From a virus: a stretch of 32,894 bases of DNA. This document shows, piece by piece, positions 797-32,613 of the stretch (the stretch's first letter is position 1; each line of letters starts with the position of its first letter). The notes below the pieces were generated by a model, which did not search any database, was not told where the DNA came from, and was given only the letters and a program-made list of their open reading frames with translations. A program made the position numbers and the translations under genes. The stretch is taken from IMG/VR virus record IMGVR_UViG_3300048928_000273, positions 1-32,894 of that record; one strand, 5' to 3'.

Positions 797-2404
797 ATGC
801 CAAACCAGATATTTGAATTCAAAAATTATCCTATAGTTTTTATTGGGTCAGGCATATCAAAAAGATATCTTGAGGGCTACCCAACTTGGGTAGAACTGCT
901 AAATGAGTATTGGCAAAAAACAAATCAGGAAATGGATTTTTATAATTACCTTTTAACCATAAAGGAAAAGTACAAGAACACTGTCCATGATGATTCTGAT
1001 TTGGATCATAAAATTTACACAGAAGCTGCAAGCAAAATTGAAAATGACTTTAATAAGATGTTCACAGATAGCATAATTACACTAGATGATTTAGATGCAA
1101 AGCGAGTTTTTAGCGAAAACATCTCTCCATTCAAGCATTCGATATGCCAAAGATTCTCAGAAACAATCCTAAAGCCTGATGTGAATCACGAAGAATTAAA
1201 TTCATTTAAAATCCTTTTAAAAAAAGCAAAGATGATTATCACCACGAATTACGATGCTTTCGTTGAAAGTTTACTTCTTGAGCAAGGTGTAATACCAAAA
1301 TTATATATTGGTAATAATGGATTTTTCGAGGATACCGTAGGATGGAGCGAGCTCTACAAAATCCATGGCGACATCAAAGATCCACACTCAATTATCATTA
1401 ACACAGAAGACTATGAAAAATACGATGATAAAGCAATATTAATTAGTGCTAAAATATTATCTAACATGATCAAAAACCCAATACTATTTATTGGTTACTC
1501 ATTGACTGATAGGAATGTAAAAAAACTACTCTCTGACTTTTCCTCACAACTGCCGAAGGAGGATGGCCGAAAATCAGCTGAGAGAATAATCCTTATACAA
1601 CACAAACCAAATGAACATGAAGTTATAACCCATCAAATCACTGACCAACAACTGCAAGTCACTTATACTTCTGTTGAAACTGACAATTATAAACAAATTT
1701 ACGATGAGATTAGTGCCGTTGATGAAGGTTTATCACCTTACGATGTTTTGCGTTATCAGAGAGCTATTAAAACACTAATTGTAAATGAAGGTGAGAAAGG
1801 GAATTTAGACACACTACTTGTCTCCCCTTCAGACTTAGACAAACTTGAAGAAAGCGTGAAGCAGGGTAAAAATCTTGTCGTCGCACTCGGCGATAAAAAA
1901 TATGTTTTCACTCAAATTAAAGAAATTAACTACCTAGAAGATTACTTATTTGATAAGAACGAAATATCTAGCAAGCTAGCAATTGAATTTATAATTGGAT
2001 CTACTAATACTGTAAGACTTCCATTTTCAAAGATAATAGCCTCTTGCAACATTAAAGAATTAAATCTGTCCGCAAAACTATTAAACAGGCTTAATCAGAG
2101 AATCGAACGTCATGGAAGATTAGACTCAATGATCGGTGCAGTTAAGTTAGACAAAGTCAATGCTGATAAGGAATTCCATGAAATCAGCATCATAAAAAAC
2201 TCTGCATTTAGCAAACAAAAAGAATTGCTTGTGATAATTAAAAACATTAAAAACCTTCAAATTGATGACTTGGAAAAGTACGTTAAGACTGAAGCATTTC
2301 AACAGTTTAAAAATTGTGAAAATGACAATTTAAAAACGGATTTCCGTAGATTATTTTTAGCTTATGATCTGCTAATTAATGGCGACATCAAGAAGATAAG
2401 TTAA
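797..2404 (+). CDS. SIR2-family protein, probable anti-phage NADase
   Basis: A 535-residue protein with a SIR2_2-type Rossmann domain in its first ~270 residues. The nucleotide-binding GSGIS is at 17-21, TTNYD at 149-153, the probable catalytic His in IHGD at 190, and an FIGYSLTD motif at 231-238. These are the hallmarks of bacterial SIR2 NAD-hydrolases used in abortive anti-phage defence (ThsA, DSR and SIR2-HerA families). Residues ~280-535 form a helix-rich C-terminal part I do not recognise, perhaps the sensor. The start at 797 has the RBS GAAGGA. The gene stands alone between its own terminators. Its base composition is much more AT-rich than the phage structural genes, which fits late acquisition as cargo. 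There is no neighbouring ThsB, HerA or Argonaute, so it would be a single-gene system. Defence function is inferred. Confidence 0.8.
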   Translation: MPNQIFEFKNYPIVFIGSGISKRYLEGYPTWVELLNEYWQKTNQEMDFYNYLLTIKEKYKNTVHDDSDLDHKIYTEAASKIENDFNKMFTDSIITLDDLDAKRVFSENISPFKHSICQRFSETILKPDVNHEELNSFKILLKKAKMIITTNYDAFVESLLLEQGVIPKLYIGNNGFFEDTVGWSELYKIHGDIKDPHSIIINTEDYEKYDDKAILISAKILSNMIKNPILFIGYSLTDRNVKKLLSDFSSQLPKEDGRKSAERIILIQHKPNEHEVITHQITDQQLQVTYTSVETDNYKQIYDEISAVDEGLSPYDVLRYQRAIKTLIVNEGEKGNLDTLLVSPSDLDKLEESVKQGKNLVVALGDKKYVFTQIKEINYLEDYLFDKNEISSKLAIEFIIGSTNTVRLPFSKIIASCNIKELNLSAKLLNRLNQRIERHGRLDSMIGAVKLDKVNADKEFHEISIIKNSAFSKQKELLVIIKNIKNLQIDDLEKYVKTEAFQQFKNCENDNLKTDFRRLFLAYDLLINGDIKKIS

Positions 2405-3242: not shown

Positions 3243-4073
3243 ATGAAAGCAGCCACTTTTATACACTTGCTACCGCTTTGCATTACCCCTACAACTGTTT
3301 TTGCTAATGAATGTGATGCAATTCTGGAACAAGGAGTCCGCAACACATACAGTGATATAACCCAAGCGGAACTCAAAAACAATATTAGTACGAACTTTTG
3401 CTCGTCATCATCGAGTTCTACTGGCGACTCTGATGAGAAGAAAGGTGGCGTTAGTGTTCAGATTGGTAATTGGGGCCTAGGTGGTGAAGGAAGTGGTAGC
3501 CGGGATCAATTTGCTCAAACTAAAAACGAACTCTGCACCAGTAGTAATAGCCAATTATCAGATGAAGGATATCACAAGGTATTAACTTTACTTGCTGACA
3601 AGAATATTGTCGATGCATGGTCAAAATGTAATAGCAATAGAGGTTTGATAATTAATGGTGATGTCCATGATGCAACTCAAATTGATGTTTCTGTGAAGTT
3701 TTTAAATGTGCATAAAATATCTCAAGCGACAATTACAATGCCAGCCCAGATAATCGGAATGACGTGTCCTAATGTCCTCGACACCGGAAGAATTATAGAT
3801 GGTAATGAACTACTTTTTAGTTGCCAGCGGATAGGGGATCAGGCAATAACGGTCAATCTAAACACGGATTATATGGGACAACGTTTGTACATTCCTAAGC
3901 CACAACAAATAGTACATATTGCTGCCCCCAACAAAACCGATACGTTACCCATAGAGCAAAAACCTGCTTTAAACTGTACGATACGCAAACAACCCGATGG
4001 TTCTTATATAATGCCTGACCGCGGATGTCCAAATTCCCCGGCAGTTATAGTTGGAACAGTACCAGCAAAATAA
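3243..4073 (+). CDS. Secreted protein of unknown function (cargo gene)
   Basis: A 276-residue protein with a clear Sec signal peptide (hydrophobic residues 4-18, cleavage likely after VFA at 21). The mature part starts with a cysteine, has several cysteines that could form disulfides, a serine-rich linker (~54-60) and a glycine-rich segment (~68-85). No known domain was recognised. It is transcribed on its own on the plus strand, convergent with the late operon, with GAGGGTTAGG before the ATG. Position at the phage end, AT-rich composition and export signal mark it as a lysogenic-conversion cargo gene. A periplasmic or surface role is inferred; no enzymatic role is proposed. Confidence 0.6.
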   Translation: MKAATFIHLLPLCITPTTVFANECDAILEQGVRNTYSDITQAELKNNISTNFCSSSSSSTGDSDEKKGGVSVQIGNWGLGGEGSGSRDQFAQTKNELCTSSNSQLSDEGYHKVLTLLADKNIVDAWSKCNSNRGLIINGDVHDATQIDVSVKFLNVHKISQATITMPAQIIGMTCPNVLDTGRIIDGNELLFSCQRIGDQAITVNLNTDYMGQRLYIPKPQQIVHIAAPNKTDTLPIEQKPALNCTIRKQPDGSYIMPDRGCPNSPAVIVGTVPAK

Positions 4074-4207: not shown

Positions 4208-5473
4208 TTATGAGGCCGGTTCGCCGTTGATCCCGAGATTTGTTTCGACCGCTTCCAAACGCTTCAACAAAGCCGCGATAAGTTCTGCCTGGTCTTCATT
4301 GCGTTTCTTTAATGCTTTTATCGCGGCACCAGCATATGCAGCTGATACGCCCAGCGTATTAAGAGACAAAGTGTCCTCTTTAGCGAAAAGCTCACCGTCC
4401 TCGGCGACGTACAACTGGGGATTTTTAGTCAGTGTTACAGCATCAGGACAATCTTTCTGGACGTCCTGCGCAATGAAACCAAAACCTTTAGCGCCCTTTG
4501 TTACCGAAATTACTTTTCCGGCTTCGTCGTATTCGCTCGGGACATCGCAGTAATCCCATGAGCAAGTCCGCCATGAGGTGAGTACTGATAGCGCTTTTTC
4601 CGGTTCAATTTCGACAACGTTCATCTTAACGTCAATGTCCGATACTGCCACCCACCCCGCAGACGAGACACCTTGACCCGTATTGAGCATCGTGAAATCT
4701 GTGATTACCGCTGTGTTTGTATTATTGACAGTACGGAAGCGGAAGCCGCCATCGCCAGTCCCACGATTACACAGGAAATCAGCACCTCCAACTAGGCCGG
4801 TTCCGTTCCAACCGATATAAGAGCCTTGAACTGCTGGGTTAACCAACCCCTGAGTATAATATCCCGCAGGACCCGCTGTTACGCCTGCTCCCACAGTTAA
4901 ATTGCCGGATATCGACGTGTTGCCGGTAAATGATGGTGATGCTTTGGGCGCAAAGGGGGCTGCTGCGACAGTGTTTGCACCTGTACCGCCCTGGCTAACC
5001 GACAGTGCAGTAGTTAAGCCGGTAAGTGACGTAATATCCCCATTAGCACCTTTAGCCGCTTTCGCTGCCAATGACGTCGTGATGTTGCTCCATGCAGGGC
5101 CGGTATATGTAGACCCGTCAGGCAGCGTCACCGTGATTGTACCCGTTCCACTGAATACCTGTTGCCAATTGGCCTTGTCCAGATTCAAACCGCGAATGGC
5201 TTTTGCAACATCGGCTGCGACCTGGGCCGTAATGCCTACCAGCGTCGCATTCGGTACCGCTGTCCATGCGTTACCGGTAGCCGTCGGGCCACCATAAGCA
5301 GTTATCAGAGTTAGTGCTGTTGCCGAGGTTATCGTTTTAACGCCAAGCGTGTAAGTCACACCGCCGACAATAACGACAATGAAGTCACCCGCTTTTAAAT
5401 CTGTGGTAAAAGCTGTACCGGTACCGGTCACTGCCGCTGAGTTGTTGGTTAACGCAATTGTGCCTGCTGACAT
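4208..5473 (-). CDS. Tail fibre with C-terminal S74 intramolecular chaperone
   Basis: A 421-residue side-tail-fibre type protein. The N-terminal ~130 residues are Thr/Ala/Gly-rich beta structure, the middle (~150-270) is a fibre shaft, and the last ~144 residues are a Peptidase_S74 domain. The expected autocleavage site lies before Ser278 in SDIDVK; the Ser and the Lys five residues on match the Ser/Lys pair of endosialidase chaperones. The GFIAQDVQ motif and a C-terminal coiled coil (~380-410) complete the domain. It should trimerise the fibre and be cut off. It is the last gene of the late operon, the usual place for a host-range fibre. The start at 5473 follows the RBS GGAGA. It appears intact. 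Confidence 0.85.
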   Translation of the reverse strand: MSAGTIALTNNSAAVTGTGTAFTTDLKAGDFIVVIVGGVTYTLGVKTITSATALTLITAYGGPTATGNAWTAVPNATLVGITAQVAADVAKAIRGLNLDKANWQQVFSGTGTITVTLPDGSTYTGPAWSNITTSLAAKAAKGANGDITSLTGLTTALSVSQGGTGANTVAAAPFAPKASPSFTGNTSISGNLTVGAGVTAGPAGYYTQGLVNPAVQGSYIGWNGTGLVGGADFLCNRGTGDGGFRFRTVNNTNTAVITDFTMLNTGQGVSSAGWVAVSDIDVKMNVVEIEPEKALSVLTSWRTCSWDYCDVPSEYDEAGKVISVTKGAKGFGFIAQDVQKDCPDAVTLTKNPQLYVAEDGELFAKEDTLSLNTLGVSAAYAGAAIKALKKRNEDQAELIAALLKRLEAVETNLGINGEPAS

Positions 5474-5548: not shown

Positions 5549-6559
5549 TTAGAAATAATCAGTGGCCCACAGGAACGGTAATGGCTTGCTGGCATACCCA
5601 ACCACCTGCTGATTGGGGTTAGTGGAGTCACCGCCATTGATAAGGCTGGTTGGCCTGCCGAAAAATGATGTTCCGCTCCTCGCCATGCCAAGGTGAAACC
5701 AGTTTGTTGATGCCAGTTGTCCGCCAATTTTCATAACGGGGACCATAGGTTGTTGCGCCTGGTCCGTTGTACTAAAAGCAGTCGCTGAACCATTTGCCGA
5801 AGGGGTGTTGATATTCCCCCTATACATCATCGGTGTTTCAGCACTCGTAAAGCTGATCCCGCCATCAATCCCCCGTACCGCAATCCCCCAGGCAGGAACT
5901 TCCGGTGTTTTAATGGTGAAGACGCAAATCTTAATGGCTATATTGATCCCCGACTGGTTATTACCACTCACATACCCCTTAAGCGTTCGGCTTACTTCGT
6001 CATAAATCAGACCCACGTTTGGATCATCCCAATAACAAAATACCGTTGAGTTTGCGCCGACAGGTAACGTCAGGTTTCCCGTGAAAGCACCGTTGTATGA
6101 GTACGTGAGAAACAAACCGGAATTGCTATCCACCACGTAGGGAAAAGAACCCCCTGCGGCTACCGCGAAACCGAAACCGCCTTGATTTATCTCACCCGGG
6201 TAAACGCAGTACACATTAACAAGCTTCGGGCGATCCGCAGCGCTGCTGGCGAAACTCGGGCTTTGCAGATTGGTGGTCAAATCCAGCGTGGCCGTCACAG
6301 TTCTGGCATTATTGTCCACGCTTATCGCCAGCGATTTGAACTGCATAACCGCAGATATCGATGTTTTTAATATCGCGACCACGTTGTCCGGAATAGCCAC
6401 CAGCTGTGAACCCGCAGGGCATTTTGCTGAAAAGTCACCTGATGAAGTGTTCACATTACCAATGCTGGCACCGATAGAAAGACTGCCAATCCACGTTAAT
6501 GGCCTGCTGACAGACATGTCATAACTTTTGGCGCCAGCCACCGCAATCCCGAATGGCAT
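5549..6559 (-). CDS. Tail-tip associated protein (unknown family)
   Basis: A 336-residue protein directly after J, with its ATG overlapping the J stop codon by one base (TGATG), so translation is coupled. Composition is that of a phage structural protein: beta-rich, Gly/Ser/Asn-rich, few charges, starting MPFGIAVAGAKSYDM. There is no signal peptide or membrane segment. Its position between J and the fibre suggests a tail-tip accessory protein or fibre-attachment subunit, but I do not recognise the family. Intact. Confidence 0.65.
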   Translation of the reverse strand: MPFGIAVAGAKSYDMSVSRPLTWIGSLSIGASIGNVNTSSGDFSAKCPAGSQLVAIPDNVVAILKTSISAVMQFKSLAISVDNNARTVTATLDLTTNLQSPSFASSAADRPKLVNVYCVYPGEINQGGFGFAVAAGGSFPYVVDSNSGLFLTYSYNGAFTGNLTLPVGANSTVFCYWDDPNVGLIYDEVSRTLKGYVSGNNQSGINIAIKICVFTIKTPEVPAWGIAVRGIDGGISFTSAETPMMYRGNINTPSANGSATAFSTTDQAQQPMVPVMKIGGQLASTNWFHLGMARSGTSFFGRPTSLINGGDSTNPNQQVVGYASKPLPFLWATDYF

Positions 6560-9500
6560 CAGCTTAAATCCCCCACTTTAACTTTCCAGTTTCCGGCACT
6601 GTCATAGACACGTAATCCGCGGCCATCAAGCGTGATGCTCCCTTGCCCTGCGGTAGCCGATTTAAACGTAAAGCCGGTGTTCTTATCGAGATTCCAGCCC
6701 GTACCCGACGAGGAATAATTATTGGACTGAATGAAATTACCGATCTTCGCATTCGTAATCGTCCCGTCCTGGATAAACGCATCGCTGATAAACACCTGCC
6801 CGTTCACCACAGCAAATGGGGAATATTGTGTGCCACCGGAACCTGACATCAGCACGAACTGGTTCGCGTTAAAGCCCACCCGCGTCACCACCGGTTGACC
6901 TGCCTGCGCCAGCACAGCAATAGACATCCCGGCGTTGTACATCACACCGCCGATCCGTACGCCGGTTTTCAGGGTGTAAATTGCTGAAGCGCCACTGGCA
7001 TCAACAACCGCCGTCAGTTTGTCTTCAAGCGCTGCGGTCACATCACCGATTTGCGCCTGCACCTGCGTAGTCAGATCTGCCAGCCCCTGATCAACTTCTG
7101 CAATGGTAGTTTTTACCGTCAGAATATCAGCGCGAACCTCACCGTTCTGAGCGAACTGGTGATCAATGGTCGAGTTGAGGTTTAAGGCATTCTGCAGGAT
7201 GGCATCAATGTTGGTTTCAATATCACCCGTCAGCCGGTCACCGTCAGTGGCACTCAGGAAGTCATCAGCGATATCTCCCAGATAGTCGTCCGCATTGTCG
7301 TTCACCATCCCCCGGATCCAGTCGGTATATCCCGACTCATTTCCGGTCTTATCCACCAGTTGGGCGCGGTACCAGAATACCTGACCGGCCCTCAACCCCA
7401 GCTGCGTATAAATTGCCTGCGGATAGGGAACGTCGGACAGCAACAGCGGATTAGATTGATCAGAGTTCGGCGTGTACTGAATCTCTGTTTTCAGCGTGTC
7501 CGAAGTGTTTTCCGGGAAGCCCCAGTTCAACTGAATACCCCAGTTGATGCCGGTGGCCGTGAAACCTACCGGCTTCGGCGGATTACCCTCTTTACCGGTC
7601 AGCGTAACCTCAACCGAATAACCCCACCCGCTTGATATCTCCGCTGCGTTAATGGCACGCACACGCACCAGATAGCGGCCAGCGTAAATGCCAGGCACTT
7701 CAAACGACGTGGTAGAGCTGCGCGGAACGTTTACCCAGTTCCCATCGTTACGGCGCCACTGTGCCTCGTATGCGATAGCGTTCGTCGTTGCGTCCCACGT
7801 AGCCCGCATGGTCTGAACGCTGATCCCCTGATTGACCACAGAATAAGAACCGATCTGAATATTGGCCGGGGCAGACTGGTTACCTGGCGGGATAACACTG
7901 ATCGGCCGTTCGTCGATAATGGCGCCGGTATCGATGCGCGCGTATTTATCCGGGTCGTGATACGCCGCGGAAATGGTGAACGTATTGTCGTTGTTGTCAG
8001 CCACGCTGAGCACGCGGTATTGCTGCGCATACAGCTCGTCTGACTCAACCACCCAGATGCTTTCGGACTCTGGTGTTTCGCTGTAAGCCGTGGTGACGGT
8101 GACAACCTTCCCCGACACCGACTGAATTGTGCGTGACTGAGCTGCACCTGATGGAAGATTTAAAATCAGCCGGCCACCAGCAACAGCATCCGGCACGCGG
8201 TCCAAAGTAATCGCGCGACCGTTCACCGAACTTATGCGGCCACCGGTCACTTTTCCCGACAGCATTTCGTCTGCAACAGCAATAATGTAACCCGGCTGCG
8301 GGATCATGCCATCCAGCCCGACACCAAAAATTATCACCCGGTCTTTGTTATTCGTCAGGATACCCCAGCGTCCCTTCCTGTTCGCCTCTGACTGACGGGT
8401 ACAGCCAATAGCCGTAAGCTCTAACTGGTTAAAGCCGTAGCGCGTCACCAGATCCTGTTCAAAAACGGGCTCCATTGCGTCAGCGTAGGCATTGTCCGGA
8501 TCAGACCATGACACAAGGGCCGTTGTGTAACGGGTCTTGGTCGTGCTGCTCGAATAACTGAACTGGCCATCGATAACGTTCGCGCGCGTATAGCTGTAAT
8601 CGATATCGCGCGGCATGTCAGCCAGGGCAACAATCTGATTCCCGCCCCAGTACGTCATGCCGCGGAAGATCGCCGCAAAGTCTCTCAAAACCGTATAGGC
8701 ATCGTTTCGGCTTTGTGCGTAAACATTGCAGATATAACGCGGCTCAGTGCCATTTCCGCCTTTACCATCCGGAACCATCTGATCGCAATATTGTGCGACC
8801 TGGTACAGCTCCCATTTATCGATGTTGGCCGCGGTGAGGCGGTTACCCAACCCAAAGCGATCGGTGACCACAAGGTCATAGAAAACCCACGCTGGGTTAT
8901 CTGACCATGCCCACTTGAAAGCACCGGTCCATGTTCCGCTGTACGTTCTTGTTACCGGATCATAAGTATCAGGCACGCGAATAACGCGGCCCTGTGGCTC
9001 GCATGAAATTTGCGGGATGGAGCCATTGAATTGACTGGAATCGAATTCGATATACAGCAGTGCGGTGTTCGGATACCTGAGTTTTGCATCGATGACTTCC
9101 GTGTAGCTCTGGATAGTCATTGCATCGCCAATCTTTGCGCTGTTCGCATCTGCAGTAATCTTGCGCAGACGAATTGTCCAAGTGGTGCCAGCCGGTGGGA
9201 GGTCAACGCGATGGCTGCGCTCGTATCCTGACGTGGTTTTGCCAGTAACCGCTGTGTTGATTACCGTCTGAAATGCTCCGCCGTCGGTTTGCAATTCGAT
9301 GGTGTAATTGATCGAATACCCGACCAAATCACCGTCATCTTCCTGCTTAAATAAAGACGGCCATTTCAGCCGCAGGCGAATAGCTGAAAGTTGGGTATTA
9401 GTAAAAGTGTGCGTCCAGGCAACAGTGCTTTTCACCTCAGTGCCGACGCTAATTTCGTTCTCAGTACCCGGCAATCCCTGAATATAGGATTGCGCCTGCG

Positions 9501-15244: not shown

Positions 15245-16783
15245 TCAGCTGCTAACCGCTTCCTGCTCACCAAATTTAGCCGCTACATCCGTTTCGAGCT
15301 GAGCGATAGAGCTGTTCGCATCGGTAGCTATTTTTGTTGCTTCAATAATCCCCGCACGGTTTTCACCGTAGTTTTTCCACTGCTGATCCACGCTGTCATA
15401 ATTAGCAAGGATGCTTTCAGCCAGAAGTTGGGGATCGGTAATCAGCGGCTCTAAAAGCGCTTTACCGTCCTGTGTTTCAAGATATTTTTCCAGCGTGTCA
15501 TGAATAAGGTCATTGGCATCAACATTGCTTGCACCGGCGACATATTCGGTCCAGTCCCCCACGTTGCCAATTCTGTCAACCAGTCTGGCCCGGTACCAGC
15601 GCCTTATACCTGCCGGCATCGGGCCATGCTGATATGCAGACCCCGGATAGGGAATGGTGGCCAGCAGCGTTGGGTTTTGATGGTCAGCCGTGGTTGCTTG
15701 CTGCAGCTCGGTATAGGCTGTATCGCCGCTGCCTGCAGGAAATCTCCAGGTAATATCGATATTCCACACGACATTATCGCTGGCGACCAAGTTTATCGGT
15801 GTTCCGGGATTACCCACCTTGCCGTTAAGCGTGGTCAAATCGGAGTATCCCCATGGAGATGACACTTCGACCGCATTAATCGCACGCACACGCACCATAT
15901 AACTGCCAGCATAAATGCCAGGCACTTCAAACGATGTGGCAGAGCTGCGCGGTACGTTTACCCAGTTCCCGTCATTACGGCGCCACTGTGCCTCATAGGC
16001 GATAGCGTTCTTCGTTGCGTCCCACGTAGCCCGCATGGTCTGAACGCTGATCCCCTGATTGACCACAGAATAAGAGCCGATCTGAATATTAGCCGGGGCA
16101 GCCTGGTTGCCCGGCGGGATAACACTGATCGGGCGTTCGTCGATAATGGCACCGGTATCGATGCGCGCATATTTATCGGGGTCGTGATACGCCGCGGAAA
16201 TGGTGAATGTGTTGTCGTTGTTGTCAGCCACGCTGAGCACGCGGTATTGCTGCGCATACAGCTCGTCAGACTCAACCACCCATACGCTTTCAGATTCCGG
16301 TGTTTCGCTGTAAGCCGTTGTGACAGTGACAACCTTCCCCGTCACCGACTGAATCGTGCGTGACTGAGCGGCACCTGATGGAAGGTTTAAAATCAGCCGG
16401 CCACCAGCAACTGCATCCGGCACACGGTCCAAAGCAATCGCGCGACCGTTCACCGAACTTATGCGGCCACCTGTCACTTTTCCTGACAGCATTTCGTCTG
16501 CAACCGCAATGATGTAACCGGGCTGCGGGATCATGCCATCCAGCCCGACCTTGAAGGTAATCACCCGGTCTTTGTTATTCGTCAGGATACCCCAGCGTCC
16601 CTTCCTGTTCGCCTCTGACTGACGGGTACAGCCAATAGCCGTCAGCTCTAACTGGTTAAAGCCGTAGCGCGTAACCAGATCCTGTTCAAAAACGGGTTCC
16701 ATAGCATCAGCATAGGCGTTGTCCGGATCAGACCATGACACCAGAGCCGTCGTGTATCGGGTTTTGGCAGTGCTGCTCGAATA
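15245..16783 (-). pseudogene. Displaced internal fragment of a second J gene
   Basis: The open frame (usable from a GTG at 16741) corresponds to gpJ from about residue 395 onward. The first ~300 residues are nearly identical to the intact J of this phage. The following ~190 residues (fibronectin-like domain and helical region) are still J-like but diverged, for example VVWNIDITWRFPAGSGDTAY in place of the INWGIQLNWGF segment. It starts inside H and ends inside M, so both ends are truncated. It lies exactly where the end of H and most of M should be. It is therefore a rearranged piece of another J allele, not a tail gene in its normal place. Confidence 0.85.
15872..16783 (-). repeat. Direct repeat copy B (inside the J fragment)
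   Basis: The second copy of the ~912-bp repeat also found at 7645-8556, same orientation and collinear without gaps. It ends at the same TGCTGCTCGAATA where the sequence switches to H. Confidence 0.9.
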
Positions 16784-22198: not shown

Positions 22199-22700
22199 TT
22201 AACTTCCCGCACCAGGCGCGGTGAATGCACCGTAAATAAACGCTTCCGGGCGCTTAACTGCCAGCGCCAGACGCTCTTCGCAACGAATCGAAATCATGTT
22301 CTTTTCGAAATCGTCGGCATTCTCGGTGCTGATCACTACGTTGGCGTCTTCACGGTCGAACAGCTGAGCGGCGGCATTAAAGGCACCTGTCAGGAATTTA
22401 CCCTGGAAGGCGGCAGTTTCTGTTGCCACGACTGGCAAGCCCCACAGTGTAGGACCCGTCAGAGCTGAAGGGTTCGCCAGAATGTAGCGGCCCAGCGTGT
22501 CTTTCGTCAGTTCGATCTTCGCCCAGTCGATGAAGTGCAGGACATGGCCTGAAGCCGGGAAGCGCGCCAGTTGTGCCTGCAACATTGCCAGGCGCAGATC
22601 ATCGATGCCGTTCTGCTGCTCTACCGAAAATGCCGGGTCGAACGCAGAGGCTTGAGGCACAATGCCGTGAAGGTGTACGCCGGTAGGCGTCGTCATCCCA
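22199..22700 (-). pseudogene. HK97-type major capsid protein, C-terminal part only
   Basis: About 160 residues that match the P- and A-domain end of HK97-fold capsid proteins: GRYILANPSALTGPTLWGLP, VVATETAAFQGKFLTGAF, DREDANVVISTENADDFEKN and RLALAVKRPEAFIYGAF. A full protein would have about 400 residues; the delta domain, the N-arm and half the P-domain are missing. The junction with a glycosyltransferase gene is near 22690-22705. It cannot form a capsid. Confidence 0.85.
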
Positions 22701-22994
22701 CAGGAAAAGGTGCTCACAACCAGCATCAATCAGTTCCTCGAGGCTCCGGTTCTTCGATGCCACGATCCCGAGTGACCTCTCATGCCTGATTATTTCGATA
22801 CCGGAGGCGGTAGCAGCTGGCGCTGAACCATCATCAATCACGATTAACTTAGCGCCTGCCGGTAGATATTTCAGATGCTGTTCAATCTTTTTTTCCAGAA
22901 CAACAGGCCGGTTGTGTGACGTTATTGCGATACCAATGCTTGTTTTCCGTTCCCCGGCTGGACTGTAGGGTGTACCGTCAATAATGACTCCCAT
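22700..22994 (-). pseudogene. Family 2 glycosyltransferase, N-terminal fragment
   Basis: From MGVIIDGTPYSPAG at 22994 (RBS AAGAAGG) about 98 residues of a GT-A fold sugar transferase are visible: SIGIAITSHNRP at the start, KLIVIDDGS (nucleotide binding), GIVASKNRSLEELIDAG and the metal-binding LFLWDDDA. It then runs out of frame into the capsid gene. Phages carry such enzymes to modify host surface polysaccharide or their own proteins. The remaining part, including the acceptor site, is lost, so it should be inactive. Confidence 0.8.
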
Positions 22995-26224: not shown

Positions 26225-26570
26225 CGGCTGAGCACTTGCCTACCAAGCAAAAACGACTTCAAGATGAGGTTCGTTAAGCACTCATGCGAATGTGCTTTCC
26301 AGTCACTACGGGCTATCCCATCTTCGCAGACTGCAAAGCCTTGTTCGTTATGTGCTGCGGTGCCGGGTGCCTCCCGGTGAACCTTTAGTCAGCCAAACCA
26401 TGGTTCGCTTACACTGTGCCAAACTTACTTCGTTAGCTGATTTGCCCCACCGCTTAGGTGAGATCCACCACAGCGACATAAAATACCATACAGCATAAAA
26501 AGAGAAAACTACGCTGACTCGAAGCTGGGGTTCTTTGCCACTTCTCTCTGCGGCCGCGTTTGCCAATCGA
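26225..26570 (-). other. Conserved prophage non-coding segment (C4/isrK/Ash-like region, tentative)
   Basis: No convincing gene. The stretch contains compact hairpins (CCGGGAGGCACCCGG, TTGCAGTCTGCGAA and GCACATTCGCATGAGTGC in minus sense). Several overlapping short frames on the minus strand resemble peptide fragments seen over and over in enterobacterial prophages between Q and the lysis genes (for example SLAQCKRTM followed by SPGGTRHRS). In such phages this place holds an antisense RNA of the C4/isrK kind and Ash-like leader frames. Identification is from memory of the pattern only; orientation and limits are uncertain. Confidence 0.3.
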
Positions 26571-29937: not shown

Positions 29938-30272
29938 TTAAACCGGCTGCACACCGGGGGTTTTGAAATCAGTAATCGTTATTTCTGCTTTACCGCCCTT
30001 CGTTACCTCTCCCCATTCAACCGTCATGCGTTTGACCTGGCTGTCGTCCTTCCAGATCCCAGCGTGGGTCAGCCCATCAAACAGCGCCTTCTGGAAATTA
30101 TCTAAATCCCGTTTCGCCCGGTTCGGCGGGTAGAGAACCAGATGCACATCCAGTTCGGTGAGTAGTGCCGTCGGACGGCTGCGCAACTGCTGATAAATGG
30201 CCGCCAGCGCATTTGACCGGAAGATCCGTCCGCGCTCGCTGATCAGCACGCCCTTTTGTGTGGAGCGCCAGT
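29938..30272 (-). pseudogene. rusA: RusA-type Holliday junction resolvase, 5' end lost
   Basis: The protein matches RusA from about its residue 15 onward: a YWR segment, NALAAIYQQL, LVLYPPNRAKRDLDNFQKALFD with the catalytic Asp cluster, GIWKDDSQV and VTKGGKAEITI. The usual beginning (…WPPSNNRYYR) is replaced by the antisense of a DUF2303 gene. The open frame from 30309 has 15 unrelated N-terminal residues. Catalytic Asps are present, but the altered N-terminus and lack of an RBS make activity doubtful. Confidence 0.82.
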
Positions 30273-30274
30273 AA

Positions 30275-30782
30275 CATCGCAGTTTTGAAACTGAAACGCA
30301 CTGCGCCATTCCAGGCTTTGCTGAACATCAATGGCGATAAAAACTCACAGAAGGATCTGGCCGAGTGGCTCGAAGACTGGTCTGAATTCCTGATGGCTTT
30401 CACCGCTGACGGAGAAGTGCTGGACATCAAGAAAGCGATCGGCGGCGTCCGTAAAATTACCATCGAAGCATCCAGTTCTGCGGATCATGAAGATAGTGAT
30501 TTCGGCGCCAAGCGCTCAGTGATGGAAAGCGTTGAGGCAAAAAGCAAAGAAGTCATGCCTGCGGCATTCGAATTTAAGTGCGTGCCATATGAAGGGCTGG
30601 GAGAGCGACGATTCCGTCTGCGCTACAGCGTGCTGACCGGCGGCAATGCTCCGGTGCTGGTTCTGCGCATCGTGCAGTTGGAAACGGCTGAAGAACTGAT
30701 GGCCACCGAGTTCCGCGAACTACTGGAAGCCAACTTCACCGACGTTGAAGTCGAAACATTCATCGGTGAGTTCAAAGCCTGA
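30275..30782 (+). pseudogene. DUF2303 (YfdQ-like) protein, 5' half lost
   Basis: From [14 protein letters not shown] onward, about 168 residues of the C-terminal part of DUF2303, including [13 protein letters not shown] and the closing [19 protein letters not shown] normal member has about 270 residues. The missing 5' half lies where RusA starts, so an early-region deletion joins the left-arm (plus) and right-arm (minus) genes head to head. Confidence 0.8.
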
Positions 30783-31077: not shown

Positions 31078-31120
31078 ACCGGTGTGCAGCCGGCTATAAC
31101 TAAACGTGTGGAGTAATAGT

Positions 31121-31378
31121 ATGGGCCAATTAGTTTCTTTAGCGGAATGGGCAGCAGGACCAAATGGCTTCAAAGAACCTCCCTGCAAAGCCACCCTTCA
31201 CCGTATTGCGAAAACGCGGCAAACATATCCGCCAGCCGTTAAGCAAGGTCGCCGATGGGTTGTTGATGAGGAAGCTAGGTTTGTTGGTATGGTTGAACGG
31301 GTCGAAATATCGAACCATCTCCCTGCCAGCGCCCGCACTTTAGTGGAGAAAGCACTTAATGGCAGCAAGACCCCGTAA
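31121..31378 (+). CDS. xis: Excisionase (Xis)
   Basis: An 85-residue protein with the MerR-like winged-helix of lambda-type excisionases: VSLAEWAAGPNGFKEPPCKA, LHRIAKTRQTYPPAVKQGRRW and VVDEEARFV. It bends DNA at the att site and directs the integrase to excise the prophage. ATG at 31121 with GGAG nine bases before is preferred over an ATG five codons upstream. It overlaps int by 20 bp. Intact. Confidence 0.88.
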   Translation: MGQLVSLAEWAAGPNGFKEPPCKATLHRIAKTRQTYPPAVKQGRRWVVDEEARFVGMVERVEISNHLPASARTLVEKALNGSKTP

Positions 31379-32504
31379 ATACAACATTTCAACACCGAAC
31401 TTGTATTGCAAATTGGATAAGCGAAACAACAAAACGTACTGGCAATATCGTCACCCCATTACGGGGGAGTTTATTGGTTTTGGTACGGATTCAGATGCCG
31501 CGCATGCAGCGGCACTTGAAATGAATCGCATTACGGCTGAGCAATTAACTTCTCAATCTTTCGCCCTGATAGATATTGCGAAACAAAAAACCGAACCAAA
31601 TGCTCAGAACATGCGATTAAAGCAATGGGTGAAAGAATACAAAGCCATCCTTGACCGACGTGTGCAGCGAAAAGAGCTGGCATCATCTACTGCCAGGGGG
31701 CGCAAAGCATGTGCTGAACTTCTCTCGGCTCGTTCTCAAAACACATTGCTCAAAGAGTTCGGCGCACGTGAGATGGCTGCATTGATAAACGAATATGTCG
31801 ATGCAAATAAAACAAGAATGGCACAGGTCATGCGAGCTGCATGGATCGACATGTTTAAGGAAGCACAGTTTGCCGGTGAGGTTCCGCCCGGCTTTAATCC
31901 GGCACTGGCCACACGTAAACCACTGGATGAAGTCTCCAGACAGCGACTCACGCTCGAGAACTGGTGGGCGATCTATCACGAAGCAGAACGTAGGTCACCG
32001 TACATCTGCAATGCAATGCTGCTCGCTGTAGTTACTGGCCAGCGGCGTGGCGACATAGTAAAAATGAAATTCTCTGATATCTGGGATGATATGCTTCATA
32101 TTGTCCAGGGAAAAGGTAAAGGAAAAATCCGGATAGCGATCCCCCTCTCGTTGCGATGTGACGCCATCAACATGAGTGTTCGTGATGTGATCAACAAATG
32201 TCGCGACCGTGTGCTGAGTAAACATCTTGTCCATAACTCAACTGTCATCGGCGGTTCGGCGCTGGGTTCACCAGTGGCTGAAGGGTCATTAACTCAACGA
32301 TTCGCGGAAGCCCGGGATTGCGCAAAAATTAAAATTGAAAAGGGTAAAACCCCGCCGACATTTCACGAACAACGTTCCCTTTCCGAGCGCTTGTATAAAG
32401 CACAGGGGATCAACACTCAGGAATTGCTGGGACACAGTTCAGCGAAGATGACTGAGCTCTATCATGACGAGCGCAAAGAAAAGTGGGTCGTCATCGCCGT
32501 TTAA
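31359..32504 (+). CDS. int: Lambda-type tyrosine integrase
   Basis: A 381-residue site-specific recombinase. The N-terminal arm-binding domain (RPRKYNISTPNLYCKLDKRN), core-binding domain (~85-190) and catalytic domain are all present. Catalytic residues are seen in TGQRRGDI (Arg), HEQRSLSERL (His-x-x-Arg) and LLGHSSAKMTELYHDER (His and Tyr). RBS GGAG. It catalyses integration at the solitary I-F CRISPR-repeat site. Intact, and with xis and both att sites, so the element may still excise. Confidence 0.93.
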   Translation: MAARPRKYNISTPNLYCKLDKRNNKTYWQYRHPITGEFIGFGTDSDAAHAAALEMNRITAEQLTSQSFALIDIAKQKTEPNAQNMRLKQWVKEYKAILDRRVQRKELASSTARGRKACAELLSARSQNTLLKEFGAREMAALINEYVDANKTRMAQVMRAAWIDMFKEAQFAGEVPPGFNPALATRKPLDEVSRQRLTLENWWAIYHEAERRSPYICNAMLLAVVTGQRRGDIVKMKFSDIWDDMLHIVQGKGKGKIRIAIPLSLRCDAINMSVRDVINKCRDRVLSKHLVHNSTVIGGSALGSPVAEGSLTQRFAEARDCAKIKIEKGKTPPTFHEQRSLSERLYKAQGINTQELLGHSSAKMTELYHDERKEKWVVIAV

Positions 32505-32514
32505 TTATCAATCG

Positions 32515-32550
32515 GTTTTGGGGAAGAGTTTTGGAGGGTTTTTGGAGAGG
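32515..32550 (+). promoter_or_regulatory. Putative integrase arm-type sites, right arm
   Basis: Three tandem TTTTGG motifs (TTTTGGGGA, TTTTGGAGG, TTTTGGAGA) start 10 bp after the integrase stop and end about 42 bp before the att core. The same motif occurs twice at 278-302 near attL. Confidence 0.45.
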
Positions 32551-32590
32551 GAATTTATTTAAAGAAAAAACAGTAAGTTATTGGATTTGC

Positions 32591-32613
32591 GTGCTGCCTG
32601 TCCGGCAGTGAAC
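32591..32613. other. attR: attR: right prophage end, other half of the type I-F CRISPR repeat
   Basis: The core GCTGCCTGTCCGGCAG (32593-32608) is followed by TGAAC (32609-32613), the natural end of the I-F repeat. To the left it reads GT, which belongs to the phage and matches the CAC after the attL core as a palindrome. One mismatch to attL (C for G) lies at the position that varies among natural I-F repeats. No further repeat follows after a spacer length. Confidence 0.75.

Follow-up and report, generated by a model that had tools for sequence, protein, structure and literature searches.

What does a stand-alone SIR2-family gene do at the edge of a prophage, and is it of a kind of its own? 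The question is raised by a viral record of 32,894 nt (IMG/VR IMGVR_UViG_3300048928_000273, positions 1 to 32,894; the window), whose preliminary description proposed that the gene at 797-2404 is prophage-borne defence cargo. Our preferred reading, to which we give a probability of about two in three, is an abortive-infection system made of one protein and borne by the prophage as cargo, in which a SIR2 NADase effector is joined to a C-terminal phage sensor. The gene and its neighbourhood contain the following features.

498-524, + strand: terminator upstream of the gene, AACCTCCGC-CAGCA-GCGGAGGTTTTTT, a hairpin with a T-run (from sequence)
797-2404, + strand: SIR2-family gene, 535 aa, of the PDC-S25 / phrog_2695 family (ORF, profile matches)
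797-1705, + strand: SIR2_2 NADase domain (predicted activity), residues 1-303 (Pfam, PDB alignment, Foldseek, invariant residues)
1706-2401, + strand: putative sensor domain, residues 304-535, mostly helical, with a conserved VVALGDKK segment (AlphaFold2)
2411-2441, - strand: hairpin with a minus-strand T-run, turned towards the approaching late operon (from sequence)
3243-4073, + strand: ORF of 276 aa, matching no family, that shares this end region with the SIR2 gene (profile searches)

The reading frame is complete, with an ATG start and AGGA about 8 nt 5' of it. The PADLOC profile for PDC-S25 (PDLC04967) matches the product at E 4.9e-236 over residues 3-529 of 535, and the gene is also a member of phrog_2695 (PHROGs). 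Against seven close relatives pN is 0.09-0.15 and pS 0.71-0.87 (near saturation), with pN/pS 0.11-0.19. The full-length family match and the near-saturated synonymous sites at such pN/pS values show that this is not a chance ORF. As judged from these ratios, the close relatives are under strong purifying selection. For the relative L024, the sole pair for which dS could be computed across the whole gene, dN/dS is 0.044 overall; taken by halves, it is 0.035 for the SIR2 part and 0.054 for the C-terminal part.

All 39 aligned members match PDC-S25. The suggestion that the 535-residue layout forms a separate group did not hold, since the group already stood in PADLOC-DB 2.0 (2023) as PDC-S25 and in PHROGs as phrog_2695; homology is full-length (535 aa against 528/531 model positions), and the single-gene layout is no different. 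On these profile matches the gene is a new member of a family catalogued as a candidate and apparently uncharacterised. We found no open-access paper naming PDC-S25, which is weak evidence that the family is uncharacterised, and no experiment on any family member in open-access papers.

An alignment-based scan of viral contigs recovered 64 distinct loci, and the family ranges over prophages of enterobacteria, Streptococcus and Lactococcus. Identity of the aligned relatives runs from 83% down to about 20%; it is 41-44% for Streptococcus phages in the annotated collection and 31% across the full-length alignment for the homologue in Lactococcus BK5-T. Intact aligned members keep the layout at 475-557 aa. 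Among 5426 complete E. coli genomes, a sample not chosen for phage context, 165 carry one copy each, all chromosomal. For the window as such, a search at near sensitivity gave no E. coli match. A scan of genome contigs by exact peptide patterns, which make it insensitive, returned one distant relative only.

The SIR2 motifs are complete, as first described: GSGIS at 17-21, TTNYD at 149-153, IHGD at 189-192 (with His190) and FIGYSLTD at 231-238. Pfam SIR2_2 matches residues 145-272 (E 7e-22), and in a PDB sequence alignment N151 and H190 pair with N112 and H152 of ThsA. Their equivalents in DSR2, N133 and H171, are required for NADase activity (PMC10981675). Invariant in 39 of 39 aligned members are G17, G19, T149-D153, H190, G191, D205 and G233. 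Since the CxxC zinc motif is absent from the first 320 residues in all 39, the family is not a classical sirtuin deacylase. The SIR2 part resembles ThsA and KomC by sequence, and DSR2, ThsA and KomC by fold. An AlphaFold2 model built on 39 sequences (mean pLDDT 83.7, pTM 0.61) matched these three in a Foldseek search of the PDB at E 1e-8 to 4e-10, in alignments that rest on the SIR2 part (query TM-score about 0.35); SIR2-only chains of about 270 residues reached a target TM of about 0.6. Foldseek against viral models gave no match at E<=0.001. Catalytic residues and fold together make NADase activity likely.

The C-terminal half, described earlier as not recognised, indeed comprises some 230 residues with neither a Pfam family nor a PDB fold. 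No Pfam match rose above threshold there in the window protein, no Pfam family recurred at a meaningful score in the C-terminal part of 35 relatives, an NCBIfam search gave no family, and no PDB sequence-profile match was meaningful. The structure prediction and search that the preliminary description called for yielded a model of the domain alone (AlphaFold2, pLDDT 79, confident from about residue 374) with a best PDB match at E 0.93. No PDB fold matched this model at E<=0.001, DSR2 entries being among those searched. SLOG, DSR2-type and other sensor folds were tried for the C-terminus and set aside, Pfam, PDB sequence profiles and Foldseek all having given no match; nor did the C-terminus match any non-defence family. 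Residues ~357-371, which include the conserved VVALGDKK, are of low confidence in the AlphaFold2 model, and this conserved, not confidently folded stretch may be an interface.

As no sensor fold is recognised, the case for sensing is built on the architecture and on how fast the domain diverges. In 38 of 38 comparisons the C-terminal half is less conserved than the SIR2 half, with lower identity. Such divergence fits a constrained effector joined to a faster-evolving sensor in an arms race; it can also mean looser constraint, which would look similar. Should defence be confirmed, the C-terminal half would add a new fold to those that sense phage.

We propose that the N-terminal SIR2_2 domain would be an NAD+-hydrolysing effector, kept inactive in the uninfected cell, and that the C-terminal helical sensor would be bound by a product of the infecting phage. 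Binding would switch the effector on, NAD+ would drop, and the infected cell would be killed or stalled before phage release. By analogy with DSR2, one may guess at a structural protein of the phage as the trigger.

Like DSR2 and DSR1, the window protein is a single chain with an N-terminal SIR2 domain bearing the catalytic Asn and His and a presumed C-terminal sensor. It is distinct from the DSR type, as had been suggested: DSR2 has about 1000 aa with MID and CTD, whereas the window protein has 535 aa and a C-terminus with no fold match to DSR2. ThsA (SIR2-SLOG) offers the best-matching characterised SIR2 domain by sequence and a similar total length (about 480 aa), but the window C-terminus is helical with no SLOG match, and the ThsA profile covers only its SIR2 part (91-220 of 478). 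No TIR protein of the Thoeris ThsB kind lies beside the gene in the window or among the 25 families listed for the relatives. Kongming KomC, SIR2-HerA and SIR2-pAgo (SPARSA) share the SIR2 effector domain but need separate partner proteins, of which none is conserved here among the families listed. Neither a HerA ATPase nor a short pAgo is adjacent in the window or among those families. With no conserved SIR2-system partner among the neighbours listed, the gene is stand-alone, as first stated.

The position of the gene across relatives is a strong argument for lysogen-expressed exclusion. Among 65 loci, a CI-like repressor lies upstream on the same strand in 35, an integrase lies downstream in 19, and at least one of these is present in 44; the counts include contigs almost identical to one another as well as the window, in which neither gene is so placed, and representative repressors and integrases were checked. 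Most of the relatives come from viral contigs, so that the contexts seen are weighted towards phage. Five E. coli chromosomes (L004, L070-L073) were examined, and in all of them the gene lies in a lambdoid prophage in the order repressor, SIR2, kil, gam, bet, exo ... integrase; their integration sites differ (e.g. tRNA-Arg by intD and icd). Lambda has cI, rexA and rexB in that order, followed by N and the left operon; the SIR2 gene therefore stands where lambda has rexAB, on the same strand as cI and downstream of it. It differs in being one gene, not two, and we claim no sequence or domain similarity. The family thus occupies lambda's exclusion-gene position, yet we found no function for any member in open-access papers.

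In Streptococcus phage SVep1, from a mitomycin-treated culture, the SIR2 gene lies 30 nt after CI and before the integrase; in Javan227 it precedes the integrase, and in Lactococcus BK5-T it lies between endolysin and integrase. In prophages the gene thus lies in lysogenic-conversion positions, either by the repressor or near the att/integrase border. Among 101 neighbours of relatives, the recurrent ones of the first 25 families listed are integrases, HTH repressors, IrrE-like peptidases and lysis genes; known defence genes (PD-Lambda-1, restriction-modification, other PDCs) appear among those families at single loci only. The contexts examined are prophage rather than housekeeping ones, and they bear out the description of the gene as prophage-borne; across relatives the context is that of lysogeny cargo.

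The SIR2 fold alone cannot tell NAD+ hydrolysis from other chemistries, and ADP-ribosyl transfer has been proposed for some phage sirtuins by Iyer et al. (PMC9503650). The domain might therefore modify a target or make an NAD-derived signal with no bulk NAD+ depletion, and the gene would still serve defence or exclusion. We consider this unlikely, as the characterised SIR2 domains nearest to it, those of ThsA, KomC and DSR2, have been described as NADases and no macro-domain or hydrolase partner is conserved beside the gene among the families listed. Alternatively the gene could be a moron for lysogeny or fitness with no anti-phage function: it might regulate how the prophage behaves, or act as an NADase of a toxin-like or metabolic type. 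Some genes in the rex slot are morons unrelated to defence, which counts against the defence reading; co-orientation with the repressor would fit a lysogen-expressed fitness gene too, and open-access papers yielded no defence assay. Against this, no antitoxin-like partner is conserved among the families listed, PADLOC lists the family as a defence candidate, the lambda genes in the same slot are annotated as exclusion genes, and another PADLOC candidate, PDC-S31, lies in the same end region of one relative prophage; on balance we hold a moron of this sort to be quite improbable.

The reading of the gene as a decaying passenger of a dead prophage, no longer functional in this host, would agree with the deleted head and early regions described below and with the lack of a repressor upstream of the gene. 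It is very improbable given the full-length ORF, the intact catalytic residues, the low pN/pS against relatives (which reports family-level selection, not this host's) and the upstream terminator and ribosome-binding site that the gene has kept. Selection could have kept the SIR2 ORF intact while the prophage around it broke down, but a single case proves nothing. The abortive-infection system remains our preferred reading.

The immediate flanks bear on how the gene is expressed and transferred. Of the two terminators first described, the one upstream (498-524, + strand) stands, although it is absent from the listing of a consensus scan; host transcription running rightward would be kept out of the gene by it. 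The hairpin downstream, at 2411-2441, would be no terminator for the gene: since its T-run is on the minus strand only, it would stop the late operon, not the SIR2 transcript, and would insulate the gene from that operon. No promoter is claimed, because a sigma-70 scan upstream of the gene did no better than shuffles. Sequence at ~740-796 and from the stop codon to ~2550 is common to the window and L024, and in part to L028 and L023, which indicates that the gene and its downstream element travel together. To the right lie the one unmatched 276-aa ORF and then tail-fibre genes.

The gene is AT-rich, as noted earlier (GC 32.6% against 51% in the tail genes), but it is AT-richer than its surroundings in 41 of 41 loci tested; AT-richness is thus a family trait and weak evidence that the window gene is recently foreign, and we dropped it as a mark of recent transfer.

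The carrier prophage has these further features.

142-168: attR, the left half of a I-F CRISPR repeat (TTTCTAAG), the core CTGCCTGTGCGGCAG (150-164) and phage-side CACG
22202-22729, - strand: major head protein remnant (profile positions 482-641 of 752), head region deleted (profile match)
30258-30782, + strand: phrog_210 C-terminal remnant against a RusA-like fragment (29941-30309), early/repressor region deleted (profile match)
31106-31378: excisionase (profile matches)
31359-32504, + strand: lambda-type tyrosine integrase, 381 aa (profile matches)
32590-32613: attL, phage-side CGTG, the core CTGCCTGTCCGGCAG (32594-32608) and the right repeat half TGAAC

The SIR2 gene starts about 630 nt inside the left prophage end, in agreement with its reported place at the phage border. 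By its gene remnants the prophage is defective, both the head and the early/repressor regions having been cut. At one deletion scar (22202-22994) the truncated major head protein adjoins an N-terminal glycosyltransferase fragment; at the other (29941-30782) the RusA-like fragment adjoins the truncated phrog_210 gene. No repressor was found among the genes scanned in the window; in this host the SIR2 gene and a repressor of its own phage cannot share a transcript.

The attachment site is a more surprising result than the SIR2 gene. The two bacterial halves and one core make up a 28-nt repeat, TTTCTAAGCTGCCTGTNCGGCAGTGAAC, so that the prophage ends split a type I-F CRISPR repeat; Rfam gives weak CRISPR repeat family matches at both ends, below the gathering score. 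Twelve viral contigs encode integrases 96-99% identical to that of the window, and the same core occurs at the same distance past the integrase in all six that extend that far. In two (L079, L088) the core is followed by two more repeats at exactly 60-nt spacing (28 + 32) and in L083 by one more, then by leader-like sequence. At the other end, L096 (G006) has a further repeat 60 nt past attR, and L098 (G012) has cas1f, cas2-3 and csy1 directly past attR. A core search in shuffled windows gave no match. From this arrangement of repeats, close-relative prophages sit within I-F arrays, one of them beside a cas operon, and attB appears to be the CRISPR repeat itself, with core CTGCCTGTNCGGCAG.

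Two contigs with integrases about 49-53% identical (L089, L090) lack the core in the stretch read, one lying beside dcp; CRISPR targeting is therefore a property of the close integrase clade only. We found no report of a CRISPR-repeat attB in open-access papers, which is weak evidence of novelty. If true, such a phage lineage would be an unusual route for temperate phages to edit host immunity. Direct repeats of GGTTTTGGGGAA near both ends (280-298 and 32514-32532) are likely integrase arm sites. The prophage end also holds a tRNA-like 3' end (GGGGGTTCAAATCCCCCAGCGCCACCA) at 279-368, where ARAGORN calls a tRNA with a stop anticodon. A tRNA gene was ruled out, the anticodon reading as stop and only the 3' end being tRNA-like; the segment may once have served another element as its attachment site.

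Two conserved blocks bound the region that holds the SIR2 gene.

343-527: conserved block A, bounding the cargo slot, with two copies in L095 (sequence comparison)
2764-2860: conserved block B, the other boundary of the cargo slot, present in L095, L096 and L098 as well (sequence comparison)

In L095 both blocks occur twice, around different genes (583-767, 2068-2164, 5061-5244 and 6382-6465), which suggests exchangeable cassettes. The SIR2 gene is in none of the 12 contigs of close-integrase relatives, several of which are fragments. From tail fibres to the attR end, G002 has an unmatched 342-aa protein, a DUF2971 protein (PDC-S31) and UmuDC-like genes, and G012 has a ClpP-like SDH-type protease. 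With other genes in this end region in relatives, and blocks A and B around different genes in L095, the SIR2 gene appears to lie in an exchangeable slot. The PDC-S31 match is the DUF2971 protein at 2245-3030 of L095.

A tentative reading, which we think possible but doubtful, is that a lambdoid phage lineage with the host's I-F repeat as its attachment site enters the array, separates distal spacers from the leader and delivers an interchangeable defence gene (here SIR2) beside its att site, so that part of the host's adaptive memory would be traded for an innate system of the phage. The repeats and cores above support the integration part well; the functional exchange is speculation.

Elsewhere in the window, a match to the STnc100 sRNA family (RF02076), above the gathering score, lies at 26311-26498 on the minus strand between the Q antiterminator and the lysis genes. 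In the tail genes, a 300-nt direct repeat (7580-7879 and 15807-16106, 86% identical and 8.2 kb apart) could mediate deletion or fibre exchange.
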